Shown here: piece by piece, positions 25,495 to 58,036 of the stretch
How positions within the stretch are numbered: position 1 is the stretch's first letter
How the letters are laid out: every line of letters begins with the position of its first letter
From: Isoetes taiwanensis
Taxonomy: Eukaryota > Streptophyta > Lycopodiopsida > Isoetales > Isoetaceae
Direction: 5' to 3'
NCBI GenBank assembly: GCA_021234155.1
Contig: JAJEKV010000072.1
Span: 4,999,620-5,063,619 of the forward strand
Length of the DNA: 64,000 bases
The notes under the pieces: generated by a model
What the model saw: the letters and a program-made list of their open reading frames with translations, nothing else
What the model was told of the DNA's origin: nothing
Database searches by the model: none
Position numbers and translations under genes: made by a program

Positions 25495-25644
25495 GTACTT
25501 TTACTATTATCACCTTCAAGCTAGTGTTTTAAATTCAATGTCATCTTCCAGTAGCTGAAGCAGTTCTATTGTATCTACAATTTAAAACCTTTGCTTTAGT
25601 TTATCAATTCTAAGTGTAATCCCTCATTATCTGATAAAAAAGCC

Positions 25645-29840: not shown

Positions 29841-30663
29841 TCAATATAGACGATGCTCGTCTCCCTAACCTAGCTTATATCATGGCAATGGAGCCGCAAC
29901 ACCTCAAAGCCTGGTGGAGGAAAAAGAGAGCTCAATGGTTGGTTAGATAGAATGTGCAGGAGTGATAGGTGCATATATGTGGAAATAGAGGCAGATCGCC
30001 ATAACTTGAGGCAATATCTTGACACTTGCTTCCTCAACAAGCTCTCGGATGCTAATGCCTTTGAACATGTCAAGATAACACACTACCAGCGCCATATAAA
30101 TCCCACATTGGAACGAGGCCCGTAATGCTACCTACATACCCACTTACCTATAAAAAGGCGCAGACTCATTGCCTCTATTCGCACATAGGTACACCATCTT
30201 CGAATTGAGTCGGGAAGATGGATTGGTGAGCCACGCCAGGACAGGCTTTGTCAATGCTACCAAATGGGAGTCATTAAGGATGAATCTCATACCCTTCAAA
30301 TCTGCCCAGCATATGATCAAATTCGGACGCGCTATGCTGAGTTGGTCAGGCCTGGCCAGCCGCTACATGTGACATTGAGCACGACTTCCATACGGATGCT
30401 GCGATCATACCTTCAGGAGGTCATGGATATGCGAGATCAGCTATGTCCTCGGGCACACACTTGACATGTATATATACATATATTTCATGATGATATATAC
30501 TTGTACAGTTTGACAACATTCTTATTACTGCCACAGTTTTTCCCTCGAAAATCCTTCGGGGCGGGGTTTTTTTAACCTGGACAGTAATAAGTTTGTTGCG
30601 CTCCTTCTAGGTCCCATAGGCCGATTGGTCTCAGTGGACAATAAAAATCATTCTTTCTTTCTT
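29841..30663 (+). mobile_element. LINE 3' end fragment (unit B)
   Basis: Copy of the LINE fragment at 13250-14071, with the same knuckle region and the same TTTC-type tail. It is part of the duplicated block and not an independent insertion. Confidence 0.8.
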
Positions 30664-32629: not shown

Positions 32630-33544
32630 CAGTGTTGTCAGGTACGTTTAGTACGGTACGGGTATTATACGTACGTAACGTATTAATACCGTATGCATAC
32701 CTCTCATTTAAAAAGTACTTTAAATACGTTTTTTGAAATTATAAAGTACTTATTAAATACGTAAAATACGTACTTTACGTACTATACGTTAAGTACTTTC
32801 TGTAATTTTTAGAACTATTATTTCTTGTATTGCACTTGAAATAGTTGCAATAACAACTAGTATGAAGAACTTCTAGTTTTAAATAATGAACCGGAATATA
32901 TTACTTTAGAAAATTAAGTATTTCTTAAAGTTTTCAATCCAGAGTTATATATTCTAGTCTGCAATCTACATTCACAGACAAATAAATTCAAGTAATTGTT
33001 GCTCATTTGTTGCATCTGAAGCTATTAACTGCCACTGACCTCTGTATTTCTTTCCTGGCATGAATGCAAGCTATTAAAGTATTAAAGAGAAGGTTTGCCT
33101 CCTACCATGACAAAACAAGGAGAAAGGTGGGTCTCCATTCCGGTTCAACAGCCAGGGTAAGAGGAAAGAGGGGGAAAATGCAGGGGGTTTGGGTTTTTAT
33201 TTGCAAGAAGATTATGTGCTTTTTTTTCTTTTTTACTACAATTCTATAATTTTCCTAATGTCTAAAAACTCCTAATGTGTTTTTTACACCTATTCTATAG
33301 TATATAATAATGTATTTTTCCTAATGTATAATTTTACCAATTCTTATTGGTCTAATGTCATTTGGACGATTTTTTTTATATAAAGTACGTATCATACGTA
33401 CTGTACGTATTAATACGTTAAGTACGGTATTAATAAAACAAGAGCTTAATTTGACCTGTCAACTTATAGGTATAGTACGTATAGTACTGTGAGGAAGGTA
33501 CGGGACGTACATAAACGTAAAATACGGGTACGTAAACAACACTG
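32630..33544. mobile_element. hAT-type MITE with TACGTA-rich ends (unit B)
   Basis: Copy of the element at 16041-16965 with the same CTCAACAC duplication at 32622-32629 and 33545-33552. It is 10 bp shorter because of small internal indels. The shared flank shows that the insertion predates the tandem duplication. Confidence 0.86.
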
Positions 33545-34964
33545 CTCAACACATTGAAGACTTAACAATATTAGACATGCTTTGGTGTATGAGCAAGAGA
33601 AACAAGGTGCTGCGCACGGAGGGTTGCCCTCTGTGGCCTGAGGATGAAGTGGCTTATATCATACTTCAATATCATGTTTTCACAATCAATCAAAATTGCT
33701 ACTTCAAAACAATACAATACTTGATACCATGACATTATAAAAGTACAGCTCCGAAGATTGTGGATGGAGTGAATTACAGAAATTTAGCTTAAATTTGAAT
33801 TTACAAAACTGATTTCAAGATCATAATAACTGTTACACTGATTTCAAGACAACAGATGTTTAGTTTTGTATAGAATGGTTACATGAGTTCATTGCCAGAC
33901 TCTTAAAATGGCAAGAAATGTCTTATGCTTTTGCATTTACTTCTGTCTTAATTTTTGAACTGCAAAAAAATAGAATAAAGAAATATTCTGAAGATTATCG
34001 TGATAATCCTTAATGATTATTGTGATAATCTTAGGAATATTCTAAGATGATCTAAGTTATGGATTTTAACCCTAATTAGATCTAACGGTCATCAACGGTT
34101 GGATCATTGTAAACTTCGAGCCCTATGGTTTAAGATGCATCGACAACAATCTTAAAGTCAAGTACAGTGTAGGGCCTAGTGTTTTCCAAAACGATATTAA
34201 AGTCCTAGAAGCACTATATTTGCCTGGGTAAAAACCCTAGAATGTAAAGCTGATACAAAGGTTTAGAATTGTAAGCCTGATGAGATCTCACCAAAAGGTG
34301 ATACAAAAACGTAGTATGCCCAATTGTAGGTCTGAGATCTAATTCAAGCTCACCAACTTATCCACGATACAACAATAAGAGCAATACTTTAATGATATGA
34401 ATTCACAAAGGTCTAACCTTACAAAAACATATTTAAATTAAAATCCCATTTTAAGAGATCTAACATGGTCATTCAACACTTTACGTCCACCTTATCACCG
34501 ACCTCAATTGCTCTTACATCTACATTATTGCCTACCTTATCACTATCATAACATCACCAACATTGATTGTGCTTCAATCAGTAAAAAAGCAACAATAATA
34601 TAATGTTAACTTAGGCCGATACAAATATTTATACAATATCAGAACATGGTAATGTGTGTCCCTTCAAAACTACCGAGACACACACATGTAGTACTGGCCG
34701 GCCATGGAATATGAGTACTTGAAACAGTATGGCAAGAGCGTGACGGGTTGATTTTCTTCAACACCTTAAATTCCCTCCTAGAACTTATACCCAAACCCAA
34801 GTAATTACACAGCCGCTCCTAGCAAGAAAGATAACATGGATCATTAAGTAAACCTCTTTACCTGTATAGCGCCCAAAGCAATAGATTGAAACTTATGGAA
34901 CAAACAAAGTGAACCATAAAGATATTGTTGAGTAAATAACACAAGCATTTCACAACAATCACAC

Positions 34965-35944
34965 CTCAAATACAGTTCCGGTGTAGTAGGCAAAGCCTCT
35001 GATCACTGAAGCGTCAAATTCTAACCAGTCAGCATATCCATAATGTGCAGCCAACTTAAAGAGCTCCTTCAGCAAAGCATCGCATTTGGTCCAATCAAGA
35101 CTGCCAATTTAGAGAAAGGTTTAATGGAACTCAACGCATTCAGGCTGCAAAGCATATTGAAACACCTTAAAACCTAGAGTAGTTCTATAAGATCTTTAAA
35201 AAAAATTCTAGATACTTATAGAGCATCAGATATTTCTTGGTAGAAGTATTCAATTCGTTTTATACCATGGTGGCAAATATACTAGGCATGTAAGATCTAT
35301 CCTTAACTCTACACACCCATTCATGACTGCAGGCATTTTTATACCATTGAGTATATGTCAATATCAATGCAGCTCCATCACCTTCTTTCTTTCTTTTATG
35401 CACATAGAATGTAAATATTTCAATGGCCGGCTGGGCAAAAGTAAAAGCAAATGCAAGCCCAATGTGTTTTCAAATCGAAATGCAAAATCTTTCAATATAC
35501 ATACGTCCAATCTTCAAGACAACTCTAGAAACCCCACTTTTGCAAAAAAAAATGCATTCCAATTGTTTTCCAAAAGATTTGATGAGCAAACATAGAACTT
35601 TCCAATTCCCAAATTTTCCACACTGAATTATTACGAAGAAACTGTAATAAAGAAACACAATAACCACCTTCCAGTTTATCCAGTGAACTTAATGAGACAA
35701 CATCTAATATGCCTTGAATGGCATCATCAAACAACCCCCAAAGACGTAGCTCCGCCTCAATCTCCTCCTTGAACACTTTCTCAACCTACAGTAGAATAGA
35801 ATAGTTGCAAAAAGGAATCAGAAAGCCCTTGGAGCATTAGTATTGGCATTTGTTGCTGGGCAAGTTCTACCTTGTCGACAATAATACAAACTGCGGAAAA
35901 GCTTTCCTGTGTTACACTATATTGATCGAGAACTGCTCGCAGAA
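34965..35944 (-). pseudogene. Histidyl-tRNA synthetase, partial (unit B)
   Basis: Copy of the unit A remnant with the same three exons. The first exon here reads through VLRAVLDQYSV and VCIIVDK, closer to the family than unit A. The N-terminal and last exons are missing, as in unit A. Confidence 0.8.
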
Positions 35945-36345
35945 CTTGAAGAAGGCAAATAATGGTCAGAATTTCCATGGCAATTCTAGCAAACTAGATT
36001 ACATGAATAATAGCTTTAAATATACTTGCCACTATTGCAATATGGTATTCACTCATTCATTGAACAACACTATAATGCACGCCATCTCTTACCTTCAATC
36101 TGGCAGGCTTCTCACTTAGCCTCTCGTGTAACAATCAACCATAGATTCCATTTTAAAATTTTTGGGCGAGAAGTTTACTTATCGCTCCTTCCAGTTGCCC
36201 TACTATGAATGTGATGTCCAGAAGAAAGCTAGTACTATGAATAGTATAGTGACTTTTTTTATGCATGATATAGATTCCAACTTCCAACTTCCAACTTGTT
36301 TTAGCCATATGTAGAATGCTCAAATGTGATACGCCGCAAGAGCAC

Positions 36346-36933
36346 CTTATACAGTGATACGTGCACCAAAGTTTCACAGGACTCATTCAAAGTTACTACA
36401 GCTTTTACGCTAAGACTTCTTAAGTGAGCCACATCCCTAGGAAATGGCACTACACCGAGCAACAAAAACTTGCACAAAACAAAAGCCATAACAATTAGGT
36501 TAATCTAAAATTATTAGTTGCAAGTGTATAATCGTAACCTTTAACATTCATATATTTTCAGAGACAATCCTGATAATAAAAAATAACATTAACCCCTGCA
36601 CTTTAACATTGAAAATAATGAGAGTCACTAGACCTCAGACATGCAAAGAAGCACTTGTGCTGTTAGGGTTTTCAAAAAATTTGCATAAATACAAAAACTT
36701 GCACATACCAGAAAAAGATTCTTGTGAACAAAAGACAAACTTGGTCTATTTCATCTCACCAATGATACTCTGCTTCAAGTTTATTCTGAATGATATTATA
36801 CAGTAAAGTTGGATAAAACAGTGCTCTAGCTCCAGCACCAACAAACAGTCGTTTTGCCTCCTGCTTATAAATTTTGAGACTAGAAACCCCAAAGTCATCT
36901 GCCTTACCTCATAGCGTGTCCACCTTCATTTTC
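36346..36933 (-). pseudogene. PTPMT1-type phosphatase, partial (unit B)
   Basis: Contains the exon with VGAGARALFYPTLLYN (about 36933-36741) and the exon with LLLGVVPFPRDV (36468-36346). The exon with HLVIPTRDYL present in unit A is removed by the 253-bp deletion around 36270. The in-frame TGA after the first Trp of the HWW motif is shared with unit A. Confidence 0.8.
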
Positions 36934-37734
36934 TTTTCACTACAGAAACTTCTTCCACAGTCTTCTTTCCCTGAAAAGTCAAGTGTGCCAAATCAAATAT
37001 GGCCTGCAATCAAAGCGCATTTATTAAAGTTACCCAATATACTAAAATCAAATAACAACCCCTACGAAACCATTGTTACCCGCTTCATTACATCTCACTC
37101 ACAGAAACAGTTGTATTGTTCTTGCACATGTGATTAGTTACTTTGCACACAAGCATTTAGGTCTAAAAGAACTAAATTAACAATTTTCTTGGAAAATCTT
37201 ACATCATTCTGTCGTTCCTCCAACTGCTTTGCCTGATAGTGTCGAAGTCATTCAATATCAACTCAATGGAGAGAAAATGATCTCAGTTACAATAATTCAC
37301 TACATATCGTAGAAAGTAATGGAGCGACAAAGGTGAGATCATCGAGGACAAATGTAACCAAAAGGAAAAGGTGAATCTAGTTATTTACAATGCAATTATC
37401 ATGATCATCTCTGTCTTTGGCTTTGAGAACATGATATACTCATCGAAGGCAAGATGGCCAAAAGATTGAAAAATATTGCAAGTGTTAGTAGAGTAGTAAG
37501 GAAGGTGTAGTTGTCAATCACTTAAGTTTACGCACATCATGAACAAGAAGGCGTACATGAATGTAGAAGATGATGGCGTAAAACCCATACGCAAATAACA
37601 AGCGAAGTGGAGGAATTATAGTGTTCAACAAACACTTGGAAAATTTAAATTAGCACTGCATCAAACATGGCCAATTTTTTGAGGAAGCGGTCCGCTTCTA
37701 GGCTGCGTTCTTAACCCGGCTTAGATCCCTTCCT

Positions 37735-38222
37735 TTCGGAGTCCGGTCTAGCCTTCATACACAAAAAGTCATCGACTCCTTGCACATTCTCTAGCAACTA
37801 GTTCATGAGGAGGTAGTTTTTCCTGATCATCGTCATTTGTATCAAAATCCAAACCATTCCGCCTCATATCCTTCTTATTTGAACCGAAAATCTTAGACCA
37901 ATCTGGCACATTCATAGGAGCAGATTGATGCATAATAGGTATTCCTGCATCAAACAACCGGAAGAAGATTGGGGAATGGTCTAGAGGCAGATATAGACGA
38001 CATCCCCGTCTCCATATGAATCTTTGTCGAGACCAAGCCATCTTCTTCCAGTTGAAAGAAATTTATGATGATCCGTGCCTTCTATGTATTCTTCCAGATA
38101 ACCCTCTTCAGGCAGAGGTCTTAAATCCGAACCCCAAATGTCGTCTTCTTTTAGATCATTCATATCCGAAAAGTCATGAGATGTTGGTGCAGACCACAAA
38201 TGATAATCCATCAGTCCGTTAG
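37735..38222 (-). pseudogene. S40-type senescence regulator, disrupted (unit B)
   Basis: Copy of the unit A S40-like gene with the same central frame change. The C-terminal third is further damaged: ARSQM reads ARSR then stop, and the TLKGRDL codons are altered (CTG to CCG). All of these extra changes fall on CAG/CTG trinucleotides. Confidence 0.72.
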
Positions 38223-39826
38223 ACGGTTCGAACAGCGGCCCCCCAACCACAGGGGTGACCGCCAGTTTACTGCCAGTAGCAAGTTTGTAGCAGTTTTTCG
38301 TATATTCTAGGAATATACTGGCATATATCAAGAATATATTGAAAACCCATACAAGCAAGGGATTGCCCCCCTAGGGGCAACCCAAAAAGAAAGAAAGAAA
38401 GAACAACACCACTTAGGATCAACATCACAAGAAAGGTCAATGTTCATCTTTGTCTCTTATGGTGAATGGGTCTTTCTGCATCTATTTAATCCTACGCATC
38501 TATGAAGCTCATGGGAAGCACGTAAATAACTTTTCCTTTTGAAGATGAAGAAGATGAGTCTATCTCTAAGAAAGAAGGGAAGGGAAAAGAAAAAAAAAAG
38601 AAAAGAAAAGGAAAGCACTATATCAATCCTAAAGGAACATTCATGAGTCACTCAAATATTAATCCCAATTTGTTTGGAGATCAAACCACATTTTTTTTAG
38701 CACAATTATATTTGCAATAAATTAGCAAAATCATAAAACTACATCAAAAGAAGATATGACCTTATTTATTAGTATTTTTGGATTCTTAACACGAATATTA
38801 ACTCATTTATGTAGGTCAACCATTACTTCCATTTATGTGTATTATAATTCGCTACTTTCATCAACTAAATCTTAATTAAATCATTTGGAGTGACTTGGAC
38901 AGAGACCTGCGAGATGCTTCTCATATAAAGAAAGACAGTGTGCAACTGCATGACAACCTGGTCACCAATGATCAAGAGCTTATTTGCCGTATTGACAAGA
39001 AAGAGTTATGAAGTGTGTAGGAAATTGCAGACGACAATATTTAGGATGAAACAACATGACAACTAATACCCGATGGCTAAGTCAGATTAGATGTTGACTA
39101 TTGGTCATTGTTTTAGTACATATTGTTCTAGCTTTTGCCCATACTGATCTTTAAAGCATATACAATCATCTTATGGACCACATGCACAAGATAAAAAAGG
39201 ATTCTTCATAGTGATTAACCTTGGAAAGTTGATTATCTTTTAAAAAACCACATGTTTTAGAACTTGAAAATAAGGGCATAAGTTTTACAATCATTTTGAA
39301 TTTACTAGTGTTTTTAAATATTATTTCGTAATATGGTGATGTGGTTTTCATTTAGTTATTTTGAGTGGCTTTTTCTTTAAATACAGGGAGCAACAAATTC
39401 TTTTTTATGGGCATTTCTAACTAAAGGTGCCTTTGAAAAAGGAGGGGTGTATAGATTCCTAAGTTGCATTAAGGACATTAATATTGTCGGACGGAAAGGC
39501 GATCTCTAAATTGACTCTTTTGAAAGTGAGATTTTTAATTTATTCTTAATAGTTATCACTTAAAAGAAACGCCCGTTATCGCCACAAACCGGGGTCTCTC
39601 TTGCATAGTCGCTGCAACAAGCCTCTCCGATGGGGAAGATCTTCAGCTCTGCTCTTGATTAGGTTTTAGAATCGCCATTTTGTCTGAGAACAAATTCCGG
39701 CATTCAAGACAAGTAGATCAAATCTGGCATTTGAGGAAAAAAAGCTCGGCATTTGGAGGGCTTTAAATCAAATCCGGCTTTTGGGTAAGAGCCCAGAAAA
39801 ATTTCGCATTTCTTCCTTCAGCTTTA
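38223..39826. other. Unit B intergenic between S40 and MIZ1-like genes
   Basis: Copy of 21906-23548; no gene recognised. A small deletion relative to unit A lies near 39170. Confidence 0.4.
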
Positions 39827-40530
39827 ATGGCGGACAGCCCTGTGAACAGGAAGGAGCCAAATCGGCTAGGAAGCAGAAAAAGAATCGTAGATCTGACAGG
39901 AAATAATTTCATCCACCGACCCACAACTGTGCGGTGTGAAAAAGAAGTAAAATCTTGGCTTTCGCTAAGGACTCTGTTAGGAATCATGTTGCCTTGCAGC
40001 AGGATCAACAGAGCCACAATGCAAGATGATGCAGAATCTGTACAAGGATCGACCATTACATGCACCATTTTGGGTACAGAAAGAGCAAAGGTAAACATGT
40101 GCATTCAAGAAGATGCTCGAGGAGCGCCGCTTCTGATGCTGGAGTTGGCTATGCCTACCTATATCCTGGTAAGGGAAATGTCTTCTGGTTTACTCAGAAT
40201 TGCACTTGAATGTGAAAAAAGAAAAGGGGAAAACAGACCACTGTTTGCTGAGCCAGTATGGTCCATGTTTTGCAATGGCCGGAAGGTTGGATTTGCCATA
40301 AAGCGCCATTGCACAGATAATGACAGAGCTATTTTGAGTCTGATGCAGCTTGTAACTATGGGTGCTGGGGTTATTCCTCTTGAAAGGGGAAGAAGGAAGA
40401 AGATGAGCTTATGTATATGCGAGCTACTTATGAGCGAGTTGTGGGTTCTCCAGATTCAGAGTCTTACCATATGATCAATCCTGGTGGTTCCCCTGGCCAA
40501 GAACTTAGCATATTTTTGATTCGAGCTTAA
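39827..40530 (+). pseudogene. MIZU-KUSSEI1-like copy 3, frameshifted (unit B)
   Basis: Near-identical to copy 2 but with three one-base indels. A T is lost at about 40068 and an A is gained at about 40090, so a short stretch around GTERAK is out of frame. A base is lost at about 40384, which changes the last 60 residues and ends the frame early at 40474. Two of the three are homopolymer-length changes. They could be real decay of the duplicate or consensus errors. If they are errors, the gene is a full second copy of 23549-24253. Confidence 0.8.
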
Positions 40531-41391
40531 GCATCTCCTTAGTGCATAATGCAGTGCAGATCTGTCTGAGAAAAGTCTTGGCAGACATGTAGATAAATTA
40601 AAAAGAGGAACAAGTTTCTTGCAGCATTACTTTGACCATGTTCCAAGATGCACAGCTATTGATTCATATGTTAGGCACCTTTCATACAGGGAACAGTGTA
40701 CGTTTTCTATACATTGCAAAATGAATATGATGTGGATTTCATCAGTACGCTTCTGTCTATATGAAGTAATAAATATTGCTAACATAACTAACTGCATGTG
40801 CCAATCCTTTGTTTCAATGGATTGCTGCTCACAGCATTAGAAATTTAGTGCAGTGATTGTGTTGACAAGCTTGCAGTATATCTCTTAACTGTAATCCATA
40901 GCCATGCTTGCCTTGTTCTTCATTGTAATTGAAGTTATTCCATGTCAGTTTTTTTTTTCAAATCTCTATGTGGTTTCTTATGTGTCATCTTCCTTTGCCA
41001 TGCATGGCTTCTTAACCATGGTCACGATTTTGGTTCAAGCTTAGTGGTTTTATAGATGTTTTCCTTCTGTTTGCTTCTGAATCTGTTTAAGCAGATCACA
41101 TAACTTTCAAGGAGCTTCACAAGAGAGTCAGAATTTAGGTGTACTAGAATTGTTCTCTAACTCATTGCAGGTTTGCTACTTCCTTAGTGTTCACATCTGT
41201 TCAAGAAACGAAATACTAGCCATTAAATAATCCCATGCAACCAAGTGAACAAGTTGTGTTAGATCCATAAACTTTTCTTGTTAACATATTAGAAACCGGA
41301 AAACAAATATTGCCTGAATTATCTTCCCTTTTCCGGTGGGGAAATATAGGCGCCGTTATCACCAGCAAATTCTCAATCGAGAAGGGAAAGC

Positions 41392-43280
41392 ATGGCCATG
41401 GCCCTGGCGCCGCCCAGTTCATTGTACGATAGAGTGGGTTTATATGTTGGCATTTCAACACCTGCATGGCCTTCTTCACGAAGCAGCGCCAGTTTCTGCT
41501 ATCAAAATTGGACGGAGATTGCCAGTTATAGGCGAATTAATTATTCCTATTTTCAGGGGATCAGAAGAATACACCGAATTGAAGCCAAGTCTTCTGGTTG
41601 GGCCGCTCCAGAATCCCCTTATGACACTCTTGGTGAGCTCAATTTTCTTGTCTATATACCATAACTTGTTCTTAGCTTGTCCCTTTTCCTTTGCAGGTGT
41701 TGAAAAGGATGCTGATGACGAAGGAATAAGAAGTGCATACAGACGAATGGCAAAGCTTTTCCATCCTGATGGTACTTTTACTATTATCACCTTCAAGCTA
41801 GTGTTTTAAATTCAATGTCATCTTCCAGTAGCTGAAGCAGTTCTATTGTATCTACAATTTAAAACCTTTGCTTTAGTTTATCAATTCTAAGTGTAATCCC
41901 TCATTATCTGATAAAAAAGCCTTCAAGTGCTGAAAATGATTGTCATCTGTCTTTCCGAAGTTTTTAGCTTAATATCCTACCAACCAAAATGTGATAAAGT
42001 TGTATAAAAAACAAGAGCACAAACTTAAAATAAGGAATCCTTGTCAATTTTTTGTGATGAAAACATGCCCTTGGATGATAAGGACTTGGAGAATGTGAGT
42101 TTCTGTGGTAATTCACGCTTTCAACATGGAGAAGGCAATTGGTAGTAGTTGCTAGCCAATTTTGAATAGTAGCATATTATTTATATTTCTCATATTAAGT
42201 ACCTCCCTCCTGTTTGGTACTATTATTATTGCTTCTGAACACTAAAATCAGCAACTAATTAAAAAGGAACAGTCTTTCAGTTTATAATGGCAGTGAAGAA
42301 CTGGAGGAGGGAGAGACAATAGAGAGTCGCTTTATCAAGATTCAGGCGGCCTATGAATTACTTATGGACAGAGAAAAGCGCAGGGAATATGACATTGAGA
42401 ATTCTAGTAATCCTATGAAGGTTAATATTAGAGTTATTGATGAATTATGATATAGCATTCCACACTGTTACCTTATCTTTCAAATCATGGCGATATAGGC
42501 TTAACAAGAATATGCATGATGACCAGGCATCTAAGGCATGGATGGAATGGGTAATGAAGAAAAAGAAGGCATTTGATCAGCGAGGTGATATGGCTATATC
42601 TACATGGCAAGAGCAGCAGCAGAGAGACATGAATCTAAAAGCTCGTCGTCTTTCCCGGAACAAGGTAAGATATCAATTTATTTTTATACCTTGTGGATAT
42701 AGAATATAGTAGAAAGTAAAAGCTTCCATATGATACCAAAATTTACACTTACAAACTGCTTGGCTGATGTAATAGTAGAAAGTAAAAACTAAAGGTAATG
42801 CTGGACAGCAAATGTGACCATTACCAAGCATAACTATCTGTCTAGAACCCTTAGCCAAATTCAATGTCTTTTCTGCATGGTCTTTTAAAATATGCCCATC
42901 CTATGTGTTTGCATGATTTGTTCTTTATCCTTTTGTTTCCATTGCTGAGGCTTTTATGTTACCTATTGTTTAAGCTTACACTAATTTCTGGCAGATATTC
43001 CTTCATTTTCTGTCCTATGTATCCCTGTAGTCGAGTTTCTATATTTCTTATTAACATCTTGAGATTATTGCAGGAAGATCCAGAAGAGGAGAGAAGGCTT
43101 CTAGCAAAGGAAAGACAGGCTTCTACTACCAACATAGGGACTACCTTGAAACGACATAGTTTGGTGTTAAGAAAACGCGATCTCGTTAGAAAACGGGCAG
43201 AAGAGGAGGCGAATAAAAAACTGATACAACAACTTTTGGCTGAAGAGGGCCTAGAGCTTGATGACGATCGGTTCACATAA
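41392..43280 (+). CDS. Plastid-type J-domain (DnaJ) protein, five exons
   Basis: Exons 41392-41632, 41697-41771, 42281-42420, 42527-42664 and 43074-43280 join to 801 nt (266 aa) with GT-AG introns and no stop. Residues 1 to about 70 are Ser/Arg-rich and poor in acid, like a chloroplast transit peptide. The J-domain follows (SPYDTLGVEKDADD, AYRRMAKLFHPD with the HPD motif at the exon 2 end, then FIKIQAAYELLMD and REKRREYD). Exon 4 has AWMEWVMKKKKAFDQRGDM. The charged C-terminus (TLKRHSLVLRKRDLVRKRAE, QLLAEEGLELDDD) is typical of a conserved plant J-protein family. It is expected to stimulate a stromal Hsp70. Its 5' part is duplicated at 25115. Confidence 0.9.
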
Positions 43281-46030: not shown

Positions 46031-47508
46031 AACAAAAAAAATTCCAAAATGTTTACATTTGGAGCCGAATTTTGTTTTTCCAGCATTGCCCATTTGTGTG
46101 CAGGAGATAGCCACCCTGCCCGCCGTGAAATTTGCATATCATGAGCTCTCTGAGACCAAAAAGCTTCTAAAGGGTAAGCTAAGATATGCATTATATATTT
46201 CTCTTCAAGTTTTACACTGGCCTGATTCCGAACAATTGATATGTTTTGTTGAATCGATCTATAGGTTTGTGTCAGAAAGAGATAGTAATTTTGCCCGATG
46301 AAATATGGCTTGAGAATGCTAGAGAATATTAGGATGCAGGAACATACTGTAAAATGGACGGAATAGGGGTGACCCTGAGTGATTCGATGCTGGGCTAGAA
46401 AAATTAGATATAAAGCTGTAGCAAGCAGGCAAATTGTATAGGTATAGTTTTTTGTGTCACAAAGACAGAGCATCCTGATTTTATCCGGATAGATAAGTAG
46501 GTTTTGCACCCTATGCAATGGAATCGATGGATATATATTTACTGGCAATGGATTCTGGCAATGGAATCGATGGATATATATTTACTTCCTTTTCTGATTA
46601 TGTCGTTCTCAAAGGGTTCAATATTTTCTTTTTTTGATGCAAGCATTGCTTGCTTTATGCTCTATTTATGAATTGCAGATAAGAATTTGTTGGATAATTC
46701 ATTGAACAAACAGTTTTTTTTGCTGGCAATTTCTTCAAAGGTCAATTCCTACATTCAAAATATTTGCTACACAACATGTAAGCATGGACTGCTGTCGAAA
46801 GAGTTGTGGCTCTTATGTGCTTGCAGAAATGCACCATGCAGTGAAAGTCTAAGGGTTAATGTGAGAGACAATGCTTTGTCGTCTAGGGATCTGCACTATT
46901 TTGATTGAGGTTCAATTCTTTCATAGGGTTTGCCAATGCCTTTTCCATTAGAACGGTCTGCTTCCTTTGCTCTTTCAATTCTTATCTTCTATGGATTTGT
47001 TGTTTCATTGTGATCTCAAATTACAACTTAAGGTTTGCCAAACAACTCTCATCTTTCAAATTTCAGCAAATGTAGCCTCTTATCTTTCAAATCTCATCAA
47101 CTGTGATTTGTTGTGTGCATGTGTTTTATGTATATAGTATAGTGGGCTTTCCTGCTGTGGAAACAAGGCGACGCGCGGCAGCGCGGAGCCGTGTTGACAC
47201 AGCAGGAAAGCCTACTAAATGGGCTTCCCTATAACGTGGAGGACAATTAGGTGATGTTCTGTGCCACGTGTCAACCATCCGACGGCTGGAGCAGAGAATC
47301 GCCACAAAAAACAATGAGTAATTTTGTTACTATACTTCCCTGGAAATGAATGTCCCCTAAAAATTGCCACGTGGCGACATAGGGTTGGACGAGAGGGCAG
47401 AACAGCACCTAACTGTTCTTCACGAGCTAGATGAAGTATCGACCCACATGTTTGAAACCATTGAGAGCCTTATGCCAGCGTGAAACCATTGAGCCGTTAA
47501 GGTTGGGA
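46031..47508. other. Gene-poor region with small repeats
   Basis: No gene supported. A 29-bp direct repeat (core GGAATCGATGGATATATA) lies at 46515-46543 and 46558-46586. An exon-like stretch at 46101-46170 has an AG before it and a GTAAGC after it (VKFAYHELSET), but it has no confirmed partner exons. Confidence 0.45.
47141..47216. repeat. Short inverted repeat, 19-bp arms
   Basis: AGTGGGCTTTCCTGCTGTG (47141-47159) pairs with 47198-47216 at 18 of 19 positions. The loop is GC-rich (GACGCGCGGCAGCGCGG). A further AAATGGGCTTCCC copy of the arm follows at about 47217. Probably a tiny foldback or MITE relic. Confidence 0.75.
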
Positions 47509-47826
47509 TAAACTATGCGGGGAATTTTATCTGGAGGGTTTTTTTTTAGATGGCTTGGAGGGTTCCATGGGAGAATATTCTTTGGAATATTCTATTGTGG
47601 CATGTCGCACCACTTGCCATTTTTTTTCCCATCTAGCAAAAGTCACTATAAGACCTTTTAAAATAAAACAATTTTGCGTTCATCTAATGAACATGTGTAT
47701 TGTGAAGGTTATAACATATACCATAGTGAGATCAGTTTGAGTCAACATTTAGCGAAATTGCTGATTACCACACTACTAACTATTATAATTTGATATGGAA
47801 ATCTTCCTACCAAGAACTGTTTTTCC

Positions 47827-50800
47827 TCAGGCGAGGACCCTTTGGAGAACAACCTCTGTCAATACAGGCTGAATGATGTCCAAGAAAAACCTGGGGTCGT
47901 GGTTCAGGACTTTCGCAAATACGTACATCAGATGTTTGCATGGAATGTATATCCTTTTCAGTTCTCTACCCATGAAATCCGGGCATGTGCAGGTGGGATG
48001 CTTACATACCCTCACTGTATAAGTTTCATCTGGTCGACGCAACTCGTAAGCAACATCCCTATTGGTGATATTGACCTTTACAGACTCAATATCACACTCC
48101 AGTTGTAAAGCTTGATTAAGCTTTGTTTCAGCTTCTACACAAAGCTTCCCTCGTCTGTTCATGCGCTTGCCAAAACGTTCCATGAAGTGGACAGAGCTGG
48201 TCAAAGTAGAACAATTCACACTAGCCATATCGGGCATTGAGTTCCGTGGGGTAATCCCTCTAACGGAATAGTTCTCCCTCTCCAATGTTTCCAACTCTGC
48301 ACTAGTTATATTTATTCCTTTTGCCACAGGCCAATCTGCTGGACGAGTTGGTATGGCTATGATGCCTGCAGCTGGATAGTAAGTATGCTGCACATTTTGA
48401 GGACAAAACCAAAACCTTTGTGTGACTTCTCTCCCATTTACTTTCCTTTGTCCAGTGAAGCATGGTGCAATAGTAGACTCTGTACGAACTTTATTAATTT
48501 CAGCATTGCATCTTCGACCATTGGACTTTATTCTACCTTGACATCTTATTTTACTACCAGGCTCTGTTCTTCTAATAGCCCATTCCCCTAGCAGCAAATC
48601 ATACTCCTGTACAAGGTATGTAGCATCATCAAAGATTATATTCCGCTTTGCTGAAGCATCTACCCTAACTCTAGACCGAGTATGGGCCCTCTTGTCTGGA
48701 CGATGGCTACCGGAACCCACATCCTTGTTATATTCCGTTCTATCTCTGGTCCTTTTTAGCACAGTCTGATTGTTTCCTTTTGAACCTGCATGAATGGGCC
48801 TTAAACCACTATGTAAAACTGTCGAGTTGACTGCGCTGACACAAGCAGATGGAGTAACGTTACTAGTAACTGGAGTGCCCATTCTGCACATTAAGGTATC
48901 CATCCCTGGACCTATTCTAACAAAATTGTGTTCTCTATGTGCTTTGCACTTTGTACTTTGCAGCACAGCTTCTGTCAGATCGTACAAGCATGCATCGTAC
49001 AAGGATAATTTATTCACGTACCCTCTTGATGCTAGCCAACTAGCATGCACAGATTCTGATAGATTAGTGTTAGGGATTTGAGCTCTGCACAAATTTAGAT
49101 GCTCTTGTCTATGCTCTTGGAATATGTACTTATTTGTGTGTCGTTGAAGACATTGTTCCCAATGGAACTTACAGCCACGTTCCTTTCCTTCCATGGGCTG
49201 GCCATCATTGAACACAACCCGAATTGCATTCCAATTAGCCTGAGCTTCGTCTGCCATGAATCCTTTGAACTGAGCAGGTGGTGAGTTCCTTAGTATCATA
49301 ACTTTGTTTAGCTTTGTCCAGAACTTTATCTGAGCTTCCGTATCCTCCGTTTTCATGTCACATGTTGCTATTGTAAGAAGGCAACGCATACTGCACATTT
49401 CAAAAATTACAGTAAGTAAATAAGTAGTTTGAAATGGCAAGTGAAAAACATGACAGATAAGAATATCACCTTGGGTCATACACATGACATGCTAAAGTAG
49501 TCCACTCAACAGTGCGTTTTACGTGGTCAAAATGTACCCAAGAGTTTTCTAAATCTCCTCCTGGACGCATTCGATTGACGAGTTCCACTCCAGAACCTGC
49601 TCCTGTTGTGGACATTTTGAAGATATAGCATCGACCATTTTCTTCATCATGAAGTTGGTATGGAAATTTGGAACCGTGGAAGAATTGGTATTTGCAGTGC
49701 TGTTTTAAGTATATGATCTTTCCAACTTCATCTTTTTGGTGGACTTTATTTTCAAGACTCTTATTTATCCATTGACGTATCCTACAAAAGAACCAATTTT
49801 TAGAAAATAAAGAGCATCAAGTAGTTACAATTTAAACTTGAGCATAAGAATACTTTCTTTTGTTGCAAAGAGGTTGAAGTTGCTTCAAAAGATTGTCTAT
49901 TTTATCTCTCCCCCACAACTGTATGTCATCACAATCAGTAGTTGTTATCAAGTTGTTGACAGTGAGCTCCATAGCTACCTCCATCTGTATCTGTTTTGCA
50001 CCCTTCTTGCTTCCTATAGAAGCATTAACTCTACTATTGACCATCTGGTGCAGCAAATGTATTTCTTCACGAGTTGGAGGAGTTCTGATAGGATGATCAT
50101 GTAAACCAACATGAATGGATAATCTTGTGTGTATGGCTTCGTCAGGTATAACATAATATATCACGCAACTGCATAGTGCGAGACACGTTGGCTGTTCCTC
50201 ACAGTACTCACAAGCTAGAATTCCATGTGAACGGGATATAGGACCAAGTGCAGGTAGCTGCTTCATAGTTCGCTTCCACTGGACATCATTTGGCACACTT
50301 CTGGAAAGAAAATAGTCACATGTTGGATTCATGCACCTTAAATGACCACAGCACTTGGAATATTTAACTATGCCATCGAATGAATGACTTGTCTTCTCGG
50401 GCTTCGTCCAGAGATGTGGATCAAACTTTCTTTCCATGCCTGCCATAGAATTCAAGTCATCTGGAGGTAGCTCAAATACCACATTGCCATTGTAATTAGA
50501 GGGTAGACATCTCACTGATATTGGTGCAGTAACAGATGAACACAATCTCTTAAGTTTGCTAGATCCAAAACTACCAACAAGTGTTTGAAACGTGGAAACA
50601 ATGTTTACAGTACTCTCACGAATATGCTGGATCGGACTGTCAACAATTATTGGTGCATGAGGAGTGCTGACCTCAAGAATAATAGGCGTGCCTTCGACTG
50701 TGACAAAGTTCCCATTATAGGCTAGGGCCACATACACACTCTGCCCCTCTTGATTCACAACTTCGTCAAGAAGAATTGTCATTCCTCTACCACTCTTAGA

Positions 50801-51070
50801 TTGCACAACACACAATTTTTCATTACGAAATTGGAAACTCTCACACAACCATTTCCTAGACAGTTGATATTCTCCATTCACAAAAGAGCATACCATTCTC
50901 AATGTTTTACCAGGTGATGAGATTATCACGTCATTTGCAGTGAAAGAAAGAATCTCACAGTCGTTTGCAGCCATTGCAACAACAAATAACTTCGTGCTAC
51001 ACAGAACTCTTCCGCAGGAAACTAGACTACTAAAACTAGAATAGCTAACTTGAATACGTTGAACAATCAA
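47827..51070 (-). CDS. MULE-type transposase with WRKY/GCM-like and SWIM zinc fingers
   Basis: Exons 51070-49854, 49781-49470 and 49390-47827 have GT-AG introns and join to 3093 nt, an uninterrupted 1030 aa; an internal start at 50974 (MAANDCEILSF) is also likely. Residues about 225-345 form a WRKY/GCM-like zinc region (KCCGHLRCMNPTCDYF, CEYCEEQPTCLALC, HVGLHDHP). Exon 2 and the start of exon 3 give the first catalytic region (FDHVKRTVEW, CHVYDP, CDMKTED). FMADEAQANWNAIR holds the probable second Asp, followed by the C-x2-HW motif (GCKFHWEQCLQRH) typical of MULE transposases, then TNLSESVHASWL with a candidate Glu. The C-terminus has a SWIM finger (CTCPDF, then IPCKHLMYVF). It should bind element ends and catalyse cut-and-paste transposition in the nucleus. 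Intactness suggests recent activity. Confidence 0.85.
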
Positions 51071-51492
51071 TTGAGGTCCTCAAAATAATTAATTACTGTC
51101 ACGAATATTCATAATTAATGAATTGCACGCCAACAATTTCGTATGCTAATTACAAAATGCAATAATTTCAGCCGGTTTAAAACGTTTAAATATTTTAGGG
51201 CGTGTGAAAATGTAGGCGTTAAAAAATAATGTATAAGAGAAGCAAGAATTTGAATAATGCCTTTGCAACCTCTTTTGCTTTTGAAAAAATAGATGTTTTG
51301 TTGTTCGTGAAATCTGTATGGGAATTAATGATTTTTTAACCTCTATTGTTTTTTTAAAGTTAATTTTCGAAAAAAACCTCGAAACATTCCTCTGTACGTC
51401 GGAAAATATCTCTGTACCTGTGTTTTTTCAAAATACCTCTCCCAAAATCGTTCGAAAATCATCTGTTCTTGGAAATTTGTCTACCCATTACA

Positions 51493-53637
51493 GACCTAGT
51501 GCGGCGGCGCACTCCATCCAGCAAGGTAGGCTCGATTTGAATAAGCTGCATGATTTGCATGATTACCATGATTTCCACGATGTTTTCCATGTTTTTTCCA
51601 GCTGCAATCCGACCTAGTGCTACTGCTACTGCTTCAATCCGACCTAGTGCGGCGGCGCACTCCATTCAGTAAGGTAAGATCTGTTTTGGAAAAACACATG
51701 TCTGTGATTTGTGAGGGCAAACTTCTGAGAGATTTACCATGCCTATTTTCAGCTGTATTCATATCTAAATCCTTGCTCCAGTTATGTAAGCTGCTCAAGC
51801 CTTTCATACCTCTGGATTTAATAATCAGTTTATACGGTTTCATGCCCCAGCTCAGAGTTTCATGCCCCAGCTCAGAGTTTCATGTCTCCATTAGTGTAAA
51901 TATACTGGAGATATTTACCGCCCATGCTTGCTTTGTAAAGCCATGCAGCTCCCCATAACAGTTCATCCTGTACATGAATAATCTCAGTATTAGGGCAAAG
52001 TTTGCTTGATCAAACATGTAAACAACTTCGCCAGAGTAGTCATACCTGAAAACCTGAGTAAGAAGTGTACAGAACGGAGAACATTGATGTAGCTACCTCT
52101 GAATTTGTCTGCAAACTCAAACATCTGCCATAGCCAGGTTAAAGTTAGCTAGGTGCAAGGAAAAAAAAGGAAGAAAAAACTAGTTTATGATGTGGTTTTA
52201 GCAAAAGCAATGAGATATATACCGCCTAGCTTGACCGGTGGAGTCTGTTGGAGTAAGAAGGGTCACATTGTTCGAAAATCATGGATGCAAAGAAAAGGGG
52301 GCGGTTTGCCTCGGAAGCAACATCTGAACCAGGATTTTCTTCTTTGACTTTATAAGCAGTTCTTGGAGTATCCATATCTTTTGGTCTCTCTCAGCATTGG
52401 TGATCAGAGTTAGGATCTCCAACCTGAAATAAGTGAGAAAGAAGTGCATTAGAGAAATGCATGGATTGATTTGCTCAAGCATTTTTTTGTTTCTACAAGA
52501 ACTTGCTTACCTGAACCCAGAGCTCAGTTGGACTTGTGTATGCTTTGAGAAAATAGTCACTGGCCCACCTAACTGCAGCTTGTGCATGACCCAATTCTCC
52601 TTCTTTTGAAAGCTGGTTTCCATAGCTCCATGATAGCATTGTTGTTGTAAATGCCATTGGAAAACCAAACTTAATGTTGTGCCCAGAATCATAATATCCT
52701 CCAGTCAAATCTACCTGCAAAATGTTTGGTGGTTATTTCAGTTACTTCTAATCCTTTACAAATCATTGGCTTAAAGATAGCTGAAATCAGTTTTTCTTTT
52801 TTTTCCTTTTTTTTCCCCTTACATTTTGAAAATGTCCATCTGTGAGTCCAGAATCACACCTCCAATGCATTCTTTGCTCTGGAGGAAGCTTTTCTGATCC
52901 CATTCCCTCATATAACAATATGCTCTTTGAAAGGGCATATGTCATGCGTTTGCTATTTTAAATTTTTGAAGACCTTAAATTTTGATGCTCAGAATCTGAT
53001 GGCAGAAGACAAATTTTGAAGTCATGGCAACAGACTGCAGACCTAGTGCGGTGGCGCACCTCTTAGATTAAGGTAAGCTATCTGATTCACATTTTGATGT
53101 CTACGTTATCAAATTCTGTTTATGTAAGCTGCTCAAGCCTTTCATACCTCTGGATTTAATAATCAGTTTATACGGTTTCATGCCAAGTGCCATGTTTGTA
53201 TTATGGTTGCCATGTCTTATTATATGGTTGCCATGTCTTCATCCCTTCCCTTACCAAACGTTTAGCACTGGTTACTAGTAAATTCACTGGTTACTAGTAA
53301 GACTTGAATACTAGTATTATTGTTGTGCCAAAGATCATATGATGTTTAGATAGAGAAGGCATAGTTTATCGTGGTACAGGGAAACCATTTGCCAAGTATT
53401 ATATCTAGATAAAAGAAGCAAGTGAATCCAAGTATTAAATCCAAGTATTATATCTAAGATAAAAGAAGCAATCATAATAAGGCAAATGAAGCCTAGTGCC
53501 ATGTCTGTATTATTGTTGCCTTATTATATGCCATATTTGTTGTTGTTGATAGTGGTGTCTCTTATAATGCAGAAGACAACAGACTACAGACACTAGACTG
53601 CAGACCCAGTGTGGCGGCGCACCTCTTCCAAAAAGGT
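51493..53637 (+). promoter_or_regulatory. Four copies of a hairpin leader motif ending in splice donors
   Basis: The motif GACCTAGTGCGGCGGCGCAC occurs at 51493-51528, 51641-51679, 53040-53076 and 53603-53637. Each copy is followed 10-18 bases later by AAGGTAGG, AAGGTAAG, AAGGTAAG or AAGGTTGG. GTGCG and CGCAC pair around a GCGG or GTGG loop; the one stem change (GTGTG) keeps pairing as G-U. A half copy lies at 51611. The first downstream acceptor that fits is TGTGCAG at 53723-53729, just before the ParB-like gene's ATG (53749). I infer repeated, perhaps alternative, untranslated first exons. A further 60-bp segment is shared at about 51785-51845 and 53126-53182. Confidence 0.6.
51870..52960 (-). 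pseudogene. GH9 endoglucanase fragment, captured and decayed
   Basis: Minus-strand exons in correct GH9 order. About 52945-52823 has [26 protein letters not shown] and LTDGHFQN. 52714-52511 has [30 protein letters not shown] and [13 protein letters not shown]. 52423 to about 52265 has VGDPNSDHQC, then a TGA where the family has Trp, then ERPKDMDTPRTAYKV. About 52130-52050 has FEFADKFRGSY. About 51945-51880 has DELLWGAAWLYKAS. Introns with GT-AG ends are kept, so genomic DNA was copied. The N-terminus, the catalytic Asp/Glu C-terminal half and intervening exons are missing. It sits between leader repeats inside the proposed MULE, as expected for transposon gene capture. It is not functional as a cellulase. 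Confidence 0.85.
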
Positions 53638-53729
53638 TGGTTCTTTCATTCATAATGTTTGTTTGTTAAACCAAAAAAATGTTCATTGCATTCATTTTAT
53701 ATCTATTGATCACTTTCGGTGTTGTGCAG

Positions 53730-56700
53730 AATAGGGACATGGTTTGTTATGGTTCACACTAGAAACAAAACTCCCATCCCATTTGTTCCTATAGCGTACA
53801 CACCACCAAAGCGAAGGCGAGAGAAGCATTCATATTCACTAGAGGTATCCAAAGAAGAAGCAAAATCTATAGCCCTTGACAAAGCGTTAACTGAATCAAC
53901 AATGACCAAAGATATCGAAAGTCCGATGTCAGAGAAAGACAAACCAAATGATGTTCAGGATATGACTGCCACTGATCCAGAATTTGCCCAGGTGAGTGGT
54001 TCTCAAATTGGATCATTTTCTTTTTCTCCTTGTGAAATATTTAATCATGAACTTTGTATAGGTTTTTGCTCATGAGATGGTGGCTGACATAATGAGCAAA
54101 TGTCGCATTGAGAGAGGAACAGAACCTCCCAAGATTCCCCTTTGTCGTGTTTTACGAAATGAAGCCGTGCGTGCAGTGTCAAAATCTGATACTAAAATGA
54201 GAGATATTCTTCGTAATGACGGATATTTACCTGAGAAAGGAAAGTTTGTACTATCCATGAAATCCATTAAGGGATGTGATGTTTCAGTTACAGATTCTAT
54301 TCGCTCTAAATGGGATGATTATTGGAATGAAGTTAACGATGACTTTGAGAAGGAACTTGAAGCTTCCGAGGAGTGGAAGGACTTGTCAGGTAAAATGTTC
54401 CTTTGTTGGGATGGTAACCATAGAACAGTAGCGTGGATGGAGGAGATACGTTACAACCATCAATTCTGTTATGAGAAGAGCAGGCACATTCGAGTCGAAG
54501 TGTCTTTCATTGATGTGGAGAAGTGCCATGTTCAACAACTCATTTCGGCCCTCAACAGAGTTAACGAGTAAGTGGGTTGCATGTTTTGCATTGTTATGGT
54601 TTTGAATTTTGTTGATGATTTTCATGTGCATTTTAGGTTGAATGAAGATGGTGTTGTTCAAAACACAATGAAGGATACAATATACAGTGTCCACAAAATT
54701 GTTACAGCAAATCCAGAGCAATATTTTTCCAAACTGGATCCGCAATACCTGGCTACATTGAAGATTAAAGATAATGCTTCTTCCAGCACTGGCACGGAAC
54801 AATGGTATCAACTACCACGTCTGGCTTACTGCAAGATACTATTCCAGGTTACATGACATACTTGTTTATTAAACCTTTTGAATTTATTTGTCCTCATTTG
54901 TGTGCTCGTAACAAAATGGATTGTCCTTGTAATTGACATAGAGGCAAATGGATAAGGAGATAGCAGTTGAATTGGCAGCAGCAAAAGATAATGATGACAA
55001 AGAGGCCTTGCGAACAGCAGCCACAAGAAGGGTCCAAGATAAATGGGTACAGAAAATGGGAAAGTTGCTTGCCATAGTCAATACTGCATTGGGTCCAAGT
55101 TGGTTAGATGCTGTTACTAGAGCTGATTTTGACACCAAAACATCACGATTGTCCATTGAAAAGTTGCTTGAAATGGTGAAGGCTAAGGTACCCAATGACA
55201 TAAGAGATCGTTGGGTGCATTGGATGTCGTCTGGGTCTGCTATCCACAGCACGTATGGGATCCCTAAGGGTGACAAAAGCTTTAAGGACTGGATAAAAAA
55301 GGAAGTTTGGTTGGAGCACTTGGTTGAGAAGTCTTGTGAAGTCTTCACTGAGACTTCTTCAACATATCACTTGCAGATTCAAGTTCCACATGGTGCAGAC
55401 CTGGAAAGTTGGTTCCGGGCCTTCAAATTAAAGAACAGAGCCAACATGTTCAAGCCATATCACAAACATATGTCTGCAACTACAGCTCCTGTCTCTTCCT
55501 ATGAGATAGATAGAAGTTCAAGAAGAGTAGCCTATAGGTATAATAGCTATTTCATTTATTTCTCTTGTAAGAATCCGTCTAAATGTTATGTGCAATTTTG
55601 CAGATATTACAAGCACATTCTCCGTGAAAATTTTTTAGCAAATCTTCCAATTGAATTGGAATGTTGGAAGTCCACAGATGAAAATTCAATGTACTCAAAG
55701 AAGGGGAACTTGGATAGGCCAGGTGGTCTAAGTGATTATGAAGCTCAAAATTGTCCTTGGTGGATAGATCTTGCTAGTGGAGAATATCCATTAAGTGAGG
55801 AGGAAGAGTATAAGGCAAATGTCAAAGTTTCAAAGCTCAAGAGCAAAGTGGATTATAATGAAACGATAAAAAGAAGTTTGGATGCTCCAATTGATAAAAG
55901 AGATGTGAAAAGAAAGAGAAAAAATCAAGAAAAGTCACAAGCGTCTGGTAAATAATTTCAATTATTTTTTTGCATTCATGTGAATATAGATCTTGAATAA
56001 ACGTGTGACACTTTCTTAAACATGTGGCATTCTCATGCGAAGAATTGATTTGGATTTATCCGAGGCTACTTCAGAGGAAGATGTCCAACATTTTGACATT
56101 GCCAAGGTGATTACAAACACTTCGCTTGAATTGCATTGTGGAGATATTCAGCGTACGTATGAACAATATTCAAGGAAGGTAGAAGCTCCAGTTTTCCAAA
56201 ATGTTAGAGATTTTGCAAAGAGAAATGCAAGGAAGTTGCATGAGTACAAGAGAGGTGGTAATGTCAAGGATTGGGGGTTTGACTTAATAATTATTGATTT
56301 CCCTACAAATAACATGTCATGCGGGGAAGATTTTGAGATTCCTCCATGGAACGTATGCAACACTTCTTTAATCCAAGCTTTGTTTCTCGTTGGCACATTG
56401 TGCCTTGATGATGATGGTTTGGTTGGTCTCTATTTCTTGGTTGAACAAGCAAGAATAGTGGAGAAAGAGGCAAGATTAAAATGCTTGGAGCCCTTTAGAA
56501 CTTACTACTTGCATCGGGATGCCCTTTTGGATACATGAAGGACGAGGTGGGAAGTTCACAAGCAGCGTGTTGCTAGTGACTTTATGGTCAAGAAAGGGTA
56601 CTTCACCAAGCATTCAGAGTAATGTTCAATTCTCAAGTAAGTGATCTTCAATTCTATCTATTACATTATAAGCTATCTTATTTGATGTATATTGATTTTA

Positions 56701-57328
56701 TGTTTATCTTAGTTTTACTATATCTGGTTTCATGTTTTATTAATATTTGTCCATTTCAGACAAACGTCTTTCAATCTCCAAGCAATCTCTTGATCATTTT
56801 TTCATGGAAGGCAGTAAACTTACAGCAAGTCCTACTACGCCTGGTAGGAAATCCACCGAGAAGTCCATTTCATTCATGGAGTTTATTATTGAGAATTTTA
56901 GTCCAAAAGAAGGCTTGGTATTGGACCTACTTAGCTATGAGGTTGGCATTGGTAGCATCTGCTATTTTATCTCGTCACTGCTATGGATTGGACAATGATA
57001 AACTGTTAGTGGAACATGTAAAGGCATCTCGTCTTTCAGCCTTAGCAAGTGTTTCACAAAAGTTTGATGAAAGGATTATTGATCATCCCGAGGATTCAGA
57101 CGACGAAGTGGCAGAGGAAGATGAAGAACCTACATAGTATGTTTGTTTTTTTCTACTGTAATTTTTTAGCATTTGTGTCAATGCTACTTATCTTTTTTAC
57201 GTATTAGCATTCTACCTGTGTATGCAGAATCAGTAGCATCACTAATGTCAACAAGGGAATCCCCAATTCAAGTGGAAAGGAGACGTCGACGTTGTCTGCT
57301 TGTAGATGATGAGTGTGAAGAAGGATGA
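53730..57328 (+). pseudogene. ParB-like plus N4/N6 DNA methyltransferase-like gene, disrupted
   Basis: Exons 53749-53991, 54062-54567, 54637-54847, 54942-55537 and 55604-55947 join in frame for 633 codons. Exon 2 holds a ParB-like segment: CWDGNHRTVAWMEE, then IRVEVSFIDVEKC and LISALNRVNE (compare DGxHR and the later ALN of ParB/Srx folds). Later exons resemble a beta-class methyltransferase in the order motif IV then motif I: FDLIIIDFP near 56275-56300 where DPPY/W is expected, GLYFLVEQ, then GLVLDLL near 56920 and RHCYGLDND near 56980, and an acidic tail. Breaks: in-frame TGA at 56536-56538, a one-base frame change near 56945-56960, and uncertain phasing of the exon 5/6 and 6/7 joins. The altered motif IV questions catalysis. 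The final exon (57231-57328) encodes an RRRRR stretch. Confidence 0.62.
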
Positions 57329-57730
57329 CGACTTCTTGTGGCTGTATTTTCATAACATTATTGTTTCTCATAGTGTTTTGGCTTCCGTTGTTTACTTCAA
57401 ACAATTTGCTTTACAATGCTATCTTTTTCTATGCTTATACTGTGGATATGATAATAACAGTATGAACACTAAGGCAATTATATTTATTATAATAGTATGG
57501 GCAGTATGATGTATGGACATAACATAGTAAGGAGTATGGTGTATTTAGTATAATGGTATGAACAATATACTACTTTCGTGTAGTTGTATTTATTATAATA
57601 TGTAGTCTAGAAGTGCATCTTTTATACCTCAGAACCATTGACAAAATTAAAAAAAAAAAAGAAGACACAATCTAATAAACCCTCTAAACCCTTCCCAGAA
57701 AAACCCTCCAAAAATTCGCACTCAACTATG

Positions 57731-58036
57731 CCAGCATTATTCTAGGTCGTCAAAACAACACAAAAGCAAAAAAACATAGAATAGAAACAAATTGAAACTA
57801 TTCATGCTTATAGTTATTACGTGCTAACCATAAAAGAGCATATACACTTGGTTCAGACAATTTTTTGGCATTGCCATTTAGGCACATTTGAGTAACTCCT
57901 GGTGCTTTAGACACAATCACTTTTAGAACTGAACAATTGCAGTTATTTCAATCAATACACTGGAGATTGCATTTGAGTTCTACTGCCAGGCCTGCATAAG
58001 GCGTCGCGCTAAATTCTTGTATTATTGTTATTGTTA

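Follow-up and report, generated by a model that had tools for sequence, protein, structure and literature searches.

A 10-kb two-gene DNA transposon of a probable land plant, with a second gene of amino-methyltransferase fold

The 64,000-nucleotide stretch of DNA under study, the window, harbours a 10,205-bp element in which a transposase gene and a second gene, here called gene 2, are read away from each other out of a shared centre. It is a DNA transposon with two genes, its host probably being a land plant, and we consider it fairly probable that the gene-2 protein serves as an element-encoded epigenetic accessory with a methyltransferase fold. The insertion is of cut-and-paste type: it is flanked by a target duplication of 8 bp, and the corresponding empty site exists elsewhere in the genome. 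The fold of gene 2 is that of a beta-class amino-methyltransferase, and its S-adenosylmethionine (SAM) motif is mostly intact. In divergent relatives the two genes remain paired, amino acids having changed far less than silent sites.

The host genome searched comprises 1,658,258,908 bases in 1110 contigs, and the window was located on contig C1081. A previous reading of the letters alone (the sequence-only reading) had proposed two divergent genes within an imperfect inverted repeat that is flanked by a short repeat, and each of these features is confirmed. The terminal inverted repeat is about 45 bp long and imperfect; its score, computed with the ends of that reading, was reached in 5 of 2000 dinucleotide shuffles, and among 7685 same-distance pairs in the window the sole pair scoring as high is the element itself. 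Genomic matches were sampled as 40 scored of 143 left-end candidates and 40 scored of 182 right-end candidates, the latter as 43 pieces. The left end at 47519 (GGGGAATTTT...) is where 39 of the 40 left-end matches start (query base 1-4), and the right end at 57723 (...AAAATTCGCACTC) is where 30 of the 43 right-end pieces stop (query base 474-475). These sharp starts and stops place the element at 47519-57723, so that the ends proposed earlier were 1-2 bases off, and the proposed 9-bp repeat with one mismatch (TAAACTATG/TCAACTATG) gives way to a perfect 8-bp duplication, AACTATGC. The ends are asymmetric, with GGGGAATTTT on one side and GAGTGCGA on the other. A right end in the same orientation lies at most 40 kb away from 25 of the 40 left ends, against 0.02 expected; this count used 40 of the 43 right-end rows, second pieces being dropped.

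47511-47518, no strand: left target-site duplication AACTATGC, identical to the right one and single in the empty site
47519-57723, no strand: whole element, 10,205 bp, with sharp ends in genomic copies and an empty site
47519-47564, plus strand: left terminal inverted repeat arm GGGGAATTTT..., imperfect
57678-57723, minus strand: right terminal inverted repeat arm, GAGTGCGAATTTTT... in the inward reading
57724-57731, no strand: right target-site duplication AACTATGC

The empty site, a check that the sequence-only reading had named, was found at C1100:3168228-3168426. The joined flanks align there over 197 bases, identical save one 2-bp indel, and AACTATGC is present as a single copy. Outside the window's own flanks the junction query has 12 other matches, 7 of which cross the junction at 72-87% identity, which indicates that the insertion target is itself a repeat. 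Copies of the window element's type (W-type) form a set of 20, the window and 19 fetched from the genome. Printed flanks, read by eye in the 15 with both flanks readable (window included), show exact 8-bp duplications in 7, exact 9-bp duplications in 2, near-matches in 4 and no duplication in 2. Two unrelated old genes that happen to be neighbours within a chance inverted repeat would have to account for the empty site, the exact duplication and dozens of copies with the same ends; with nothing left in its favour this reading is refuted, and we give it practically no weight.

The sequence-only reading had also named, as a check, whether both genes are found again within these ends; they are, in copies flanked by target duplications. 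Remnants of both are found in 14 of the 20 W-type copies, many of which carry stops or shifts, and seven copies (the window, C1018, C1042, C930, C1062, C1034 and C1056) hold pieces of every exon tested. The remaining six (C1065, C1007a, C1007b, C2, C1007c and C1067b) show no gene-2 remnant in the stretch covered. The left end is common to all six and the right end is present in C1007a, C1007b and C2, while C1067b has a right-end match 9 bases short and C1065 a gene-2 match beyond the fetched part; these six look like internal deletions. At L023/L024 (C2) and L017/L018 (C1007) both ends are present, gene 2 is missing and the middle is partly unlike the window element, and these copies are possibly non-autonomous or gene-carrying derivatives.

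Genome-wide searches, each scoring only part of its candidates, extend this picture. Matches to gene-2 exon 2 (150 scored of 436 candidates, 41-100% identity) and exon 4 (150 scored of 400) combine to 197 gene-2 loci, and the transposase exon-3 query yielded 126 matches (78 scored of 1389 candidates), reduced to 76 places. A gene-2 locus lies at most 25 kb from 42 of these 76 places, where 0.45 would be expected by chance, and 40 of the 42 pairs are divergent. Grouped by transposase identity, pairs are found at 19 of 35 places at or above 80%, 15 of 29 at 50-79% and 8 of 12 below 50%. The two-gene family is large and old. A further transposase query, taken from the far relative L049, turned up additional members of the lineage with 74 of 1356 candidates scored; it stands outside the pairing count.

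Far relatives were read in 10-kb stretches at L047, L048 and L049, whose gene-2 exon 2 is 71%, 53% and 46% identical to that of the window, respectively. L048 and L049 share the window element's layout, with transposase exon 1 identities of 56% and 37%. The L049 element spans 8,655 bp with an exact 8-bp duplication, TTATGCCA, and open exons; at its termini both kinds of terminal word return, a G-run leading into AATTTT and GAGTGCGA, with the sides swapped. L048 has stops in the transposase and retains the GGGGAATTTT left end, and a clear target duplication was not found for it. L047 has the first two transposase exons, the third falling outside the 10 kb read, together with exons 1-4 of gene 2. 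Among the window copy, C930 and these three relatives, the proportion of changed silent sites (pS) in gene-2 exons is 0.71-0.85 and that of changed amino-acid sites (pN) 0.17-0.46, with w of 0.17-0.28 where dS was computable; for the transposase, pS is 0.66-0.80 and pN 0.06-0.45. Since silent sites are near saturation, only the contrast of pN and pS counts, and a pN far below pS shows that gene 2 was kept as a protein. That gene 2 is a passenger captured by one element, as in Pack-MULEs (MULE, Mutator-like element), draws on the general knowledge that transposons capture genes. The same partner and layout in divergent lineages, the selection and the hundreds of candidates refute it for the family, and we regard it as highly improbable.

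Gene 2 lies on the plus strand with five clean exons (53749-55947), followed in the window copy by a damaged part up to 57138. Exon borders of both genes were drawn from splice signals and reading frames rather than transcripts.

53749-53991, plus strand: gene 2 exon 1
54062-54567, plus strand: gene 2 exon 2, putative ParB-like part (LCWDGNHRTVAW), ParB by motif only
54637-54847, plus strand: gene 2 exon 3
54942-55537, plus strand: gene 2 exon 4, linker in which no known domain was found
55604-55947, plus strand: gene 2 exon 5, where the methyltransferase region begins
56035-56629, plus strand: gene 2 exon 6, motif IV (DFPTN), frame broken in the window copy
56757-57138, plus strand: gene 2 exon 7, with the SAM site of motif I, within which the window copy loses its reading frame

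The proposed methyltransferase similarity of the second gene is borne out by profile, fold and SAM motif. L048 matches the N6_N4_Mtase profile at 36.9 bits against a cut-off of 26.7, which neither L049, at 16.6 bits, nor the exon of the window copy, at 13.1 bits, reaches. Of the 12 other W-type copies with a readable motif I, 9 have LDLLSGTGS; across all 15 sequences read, 11 carry GTGS, among them L048 and L049. Motif IV precedes motif I in L049. In the structural model, parts of the core reach a predicted local distance difference test (pLDDT) score of 69-86, and only the core was used; it aligns by fold with CcrM, M.HpyAVI, M.RsrI and bdelloid N4CMT at 9-17% identity. In a viral fold library the matches, at the level of fold only, are phage and giant-virus methyltransferases, one of them named ParB/Sulfiredoxin (rank 7).

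Several observations speak against the reading of gene 2 as an element-encoded methyltransferase accessory. Motif I is a variant in C1049, C1042 and C1050 and frame-broken in the window copy, and the mean pLDDT of the methyltransferase model is 44. The methyltransferase half was not found in L047, where 2 kb past exon 4 are covered; either the fusion is not universal or this copy is broken. Furthermore, 34 of the 76 transposase places have no scored gene-2 place within 25 kb, and in two of the 42 pairs the genes are not arranged divergently. The unpaired places can be put down to partial scoring and to deletions, but transposase elements without gene 2 may exist in this genome. Copies with other ends that exclude gene 2 were not seen, the ends of the 34 unpaired places being unmapped. 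The ParB part of the earlier proposal fares less well, as it comes from the WDGNHRT motif and analogy only: this half has no match in the profile libraries scanned, and its AlphaFold model, with a pLDDT of 37, was not interpreted. Finally, where the beta class canonically has (D/N/S)PP(Y/F/W) as its catalytic motif, gene 2 has D[FL]PTN in 11 of the 12 sequences and GFPTN in C1056, and the canonical form occurs in none of those read. This replacement makes enzyme activity doubtful.

It is a serious possibility, though one we lean away from, that gene 2 encodes an anti-silencing factor without catalysis, one that binds SAM or merely DNA and would recruit or block host proteins at the element, VANC-like in function and of other origin. 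The catalytic motif deviates alike in W-type copies, L048 and L049, while the SAM motif persists as described, and VANC itself provides a precedent of anti-silencing with hypomethylation (accessible part of PMC6446971). On the other hand, motif IV retains its first Asp (11 of 12) and its second Pro, and the exon is under purifying selection (pN 0.37-0.41, pS 0.72-0.76).

The transposase gene encodes 998 amino acids in three exons on the minus strand (50974-49854, 49781-49470 and 49390-47827) and is open in the window copy.

49854-50974, minus strand: transposase exon 1 with a Cys/His cluster, conserved in L048 and L049
49470-49781, minus strand: transposase exon 2, HFDHVKR as candidate first Asp
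47827-49390, minus strand: transposase exon 3, with second Asp MADEAQANW, CxxH, third acidic candidate NLSES and SWIM-like C-terminus; open, with relatives in L048 and L049
49080-49088, minus strand: in-frame gap with about 60 residues fewer than other copies; alignments break at 49084/49085 in several copies

The roughly 60 residues missing here are present in L048 and L049, and their in-frame loss probably leaves the window transposase defective. Together, the near-identical empty site and the heavy coding damage suggest that the window copy moved recently, probably in trans with the aid of another copy. The order of the HFDHVKR Asp, the MADEAQANW Asp, a CxxH 26 residues on, the candidate Glu in N[LM]SES and a SWIM-like tail resembles the layout of MULE transposases, the residue roles being putative. 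The name Mutator-like, used in the sequence-only reading, is unproven. Pfam scans of these transposases returned no match to the MULE transposase domain PF10551 at E<=10, and an hhalign profile comparison (A5 against 8 canonical MULE domains) is weak, with a probability of 5.4% and E 0.0072, although the second Asp is in register. Canonical MULEs of the genome (150 scored of 1020 candidates), compared by eye, include none at these elements. A SWIM zinc finger scores 13.7 bits in the window transposase, below the cut-off of 19.6, and has no match for L049 in Pfam scans; no KDZ families appeared in the Pfam scans. We thus describe the transposase as apparently MULE-like in layout and leave the superfamily assignment wider.

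Between the two start codons lies the shared centre, whose size agrees with the 2.7 kb given in the sequence-only reading.

50975-53748, no strand: central stretch between the start codons, 2774 bp, with repeats

It contains an exact 65-bp direct repeat (51782-51846 and 53120-53184) beside repeated exon-like stretches ending in AAG|GT, as seen by eye. The palindrome AGTGCG-GCGG-CGCACT is found near 51499, 51647, 53046 and 53609, two of the four being imperfect. C930, C1034 and C1056 have 6, 7 and 8 such sites (shuffles 0.2-2.1), and the rest of the window has 5 sites of this type in 47 kb. Such rows are confined to the W-type copies tested: L047 and L048 have one imperfect site each and L049 none, so the palindrome is at most a putative binding site of the subfamily. 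These features touch on another conceivable role, in which gene 2 would write methyl marks for the transposase to read and would so limit or time transposition, as a form of copy-number control and not as an answer to host silencing. Divergent promoters in a shared centre would permit co-regulation, and the half-site AGTGCG recurs at the right terminus of the element as well as in the palindromes of W-type copies; the absence or near-absence of the palindrome in the far relatives argues against this role, which we consider unlikely.

Relatives were also sought outside the host genome. In 5.8 billion predicted proteins, none of three queries gave a match at E<=0.01: the read-through product of gene 2 (7994 candidates scored), gene-2 exons 4-5 (2018) and alignment A1 (6781). 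The window's own protein is missing from these results too, which means that the collection says little about distribution in plants. Viral-contig and genome-contig collections gave no confirmed relative. A tblastn search of phages matched 25 of 50,697 records, all mycobacteriophages, and the 20 matches listed cover only the motif-I stretch (13-16% of the query). The PDB yielded none by sequence and chance-level profile matches only, and Rfam gave no match.

How might such an element work? In the reading we prefer, that of a transposon with its own epigenetic accessory, a transposase of the aspartate-aspartate-glutamate (DDE) type with a SWIM-like tail would cut both ends, and the N-terminal part of the gene-2 protein would bind element DNA. 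The methyltransferase half would then act at the element, either writing N4-methylcytosine (4mC) or N6-methyladenine (6mA) or using its SAM fold without catalysis, and the element may thereby be kept expressible or its transposition timed. A bolder version is tentative and to us rather doubtful: an ancient, large clade of land-plant transposons might possess its own DNA-targeted amino-methyltransferase, of a novel catalytic type (DxPTN), that writes 4mC or 6mA on transposons. Plants silence transposons by cytosine-5 methylation, and a bacterial-type methyltransferase fold long under selection on a transposon lineage suggests a response in which elements place their own marks on DNA. Given how consistently the catalytic motif is altered, one may ask whether this protein works as an enzyme or as a reader that binds SAM.

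The surroundings of the element in the window are themselves repetitive. A tandem repeat of about 16 kb spans 9033-41921 (9033-19700 against 25643-36276 at 98.8%, 19959-25644 against 36282-41921 at 98.0%). Three DUF617 genes (PF04759, the plant MIZ1 family), on which the assignment of the host to plants is based, lie at 318-1034, 23489-24250 and 39767-40471 with 236, 232 and 144 bits; in the third the match is limited to positions 1-117 of 159, and this gene looks frame-damaged. Reverse transcriptase remnants (PF00078) occur on both strands at 5793-6230 and 6923-7525. Just outside the left end, a GC-rich inverted repeat noticed by eye at 47140-47220 (GGGCTTTCCTGCTGTG ... CACAGCAGGAAAGCC) is possibly another small element.

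With regard to known systems, gene 2 resembles the beta-class amino-methyltransferases CcrM, M.HpyAVI, M.RsrI and bdelloid N4CMT in fold, in the order of motif IV before I and in the GTGS of motif I, and differs from them in its DxPTN and in the low identity of the fold alignment. KDZ transposons carry TET/JBP genes and thus also bring a DNA-modifying enzyme aboard a DNA transposon, an oxidase there and a methyltransferase here. MULEs such as MuDR with mudrB and VANDAL with vanB/vanC share with our elements the duplication length, terminal inverted repeats and an accessory gene; the SWIM zinc finger, often present in MULEs, has a putative counterpart in the SWIM-like tail. They differ by the PF10551 domain, for which no match was obtained here. 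Their target duplications range over 8-11 bp (accessible part of PMC6446971), and the exact 8-bp duplications of W-type copies and L049 fall within it. The accessory VANC of VANDAL is an anti-silencing protein that induces hypomethylation; the article's main text (PMC6446971) nowhere uses the word methyltransferase.

The sequence-only reading knew of no described MULE with this partner. Our literature search, with most subscription papers outside its scope, likewise found no MULE or land-plant case, and the claim of novelty is nevertheless too strong, since ParB and methyltransferase are described together in algal transposons (accessible part of PMC12477816). According to that source, Sola1-1_Ec32 of Ectocarpus, a large DNA transposon, carries an N4/N6 (4mC/6mA) methyltransferase and a ParB-like partner, encoded on the other strand than the transposase, and red and green algal ParB/methyltransferase cases are cited there from Iyer 2011 and Petroll 2025. 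As far as this description allows a comparison, the two systems agree in placing a methyltransferase in the same element on the strand opposite the transposase. They differ in that the algal transposase is Sola1, whereas 8-bp duplications, a SWIM-like tail, a probable land plant as host and many copies characterize the elements described here. The ParB/methyltransferase combination, which we found described only for algal transposons, would thus be extended to a probable land plant and to another type of transposase.

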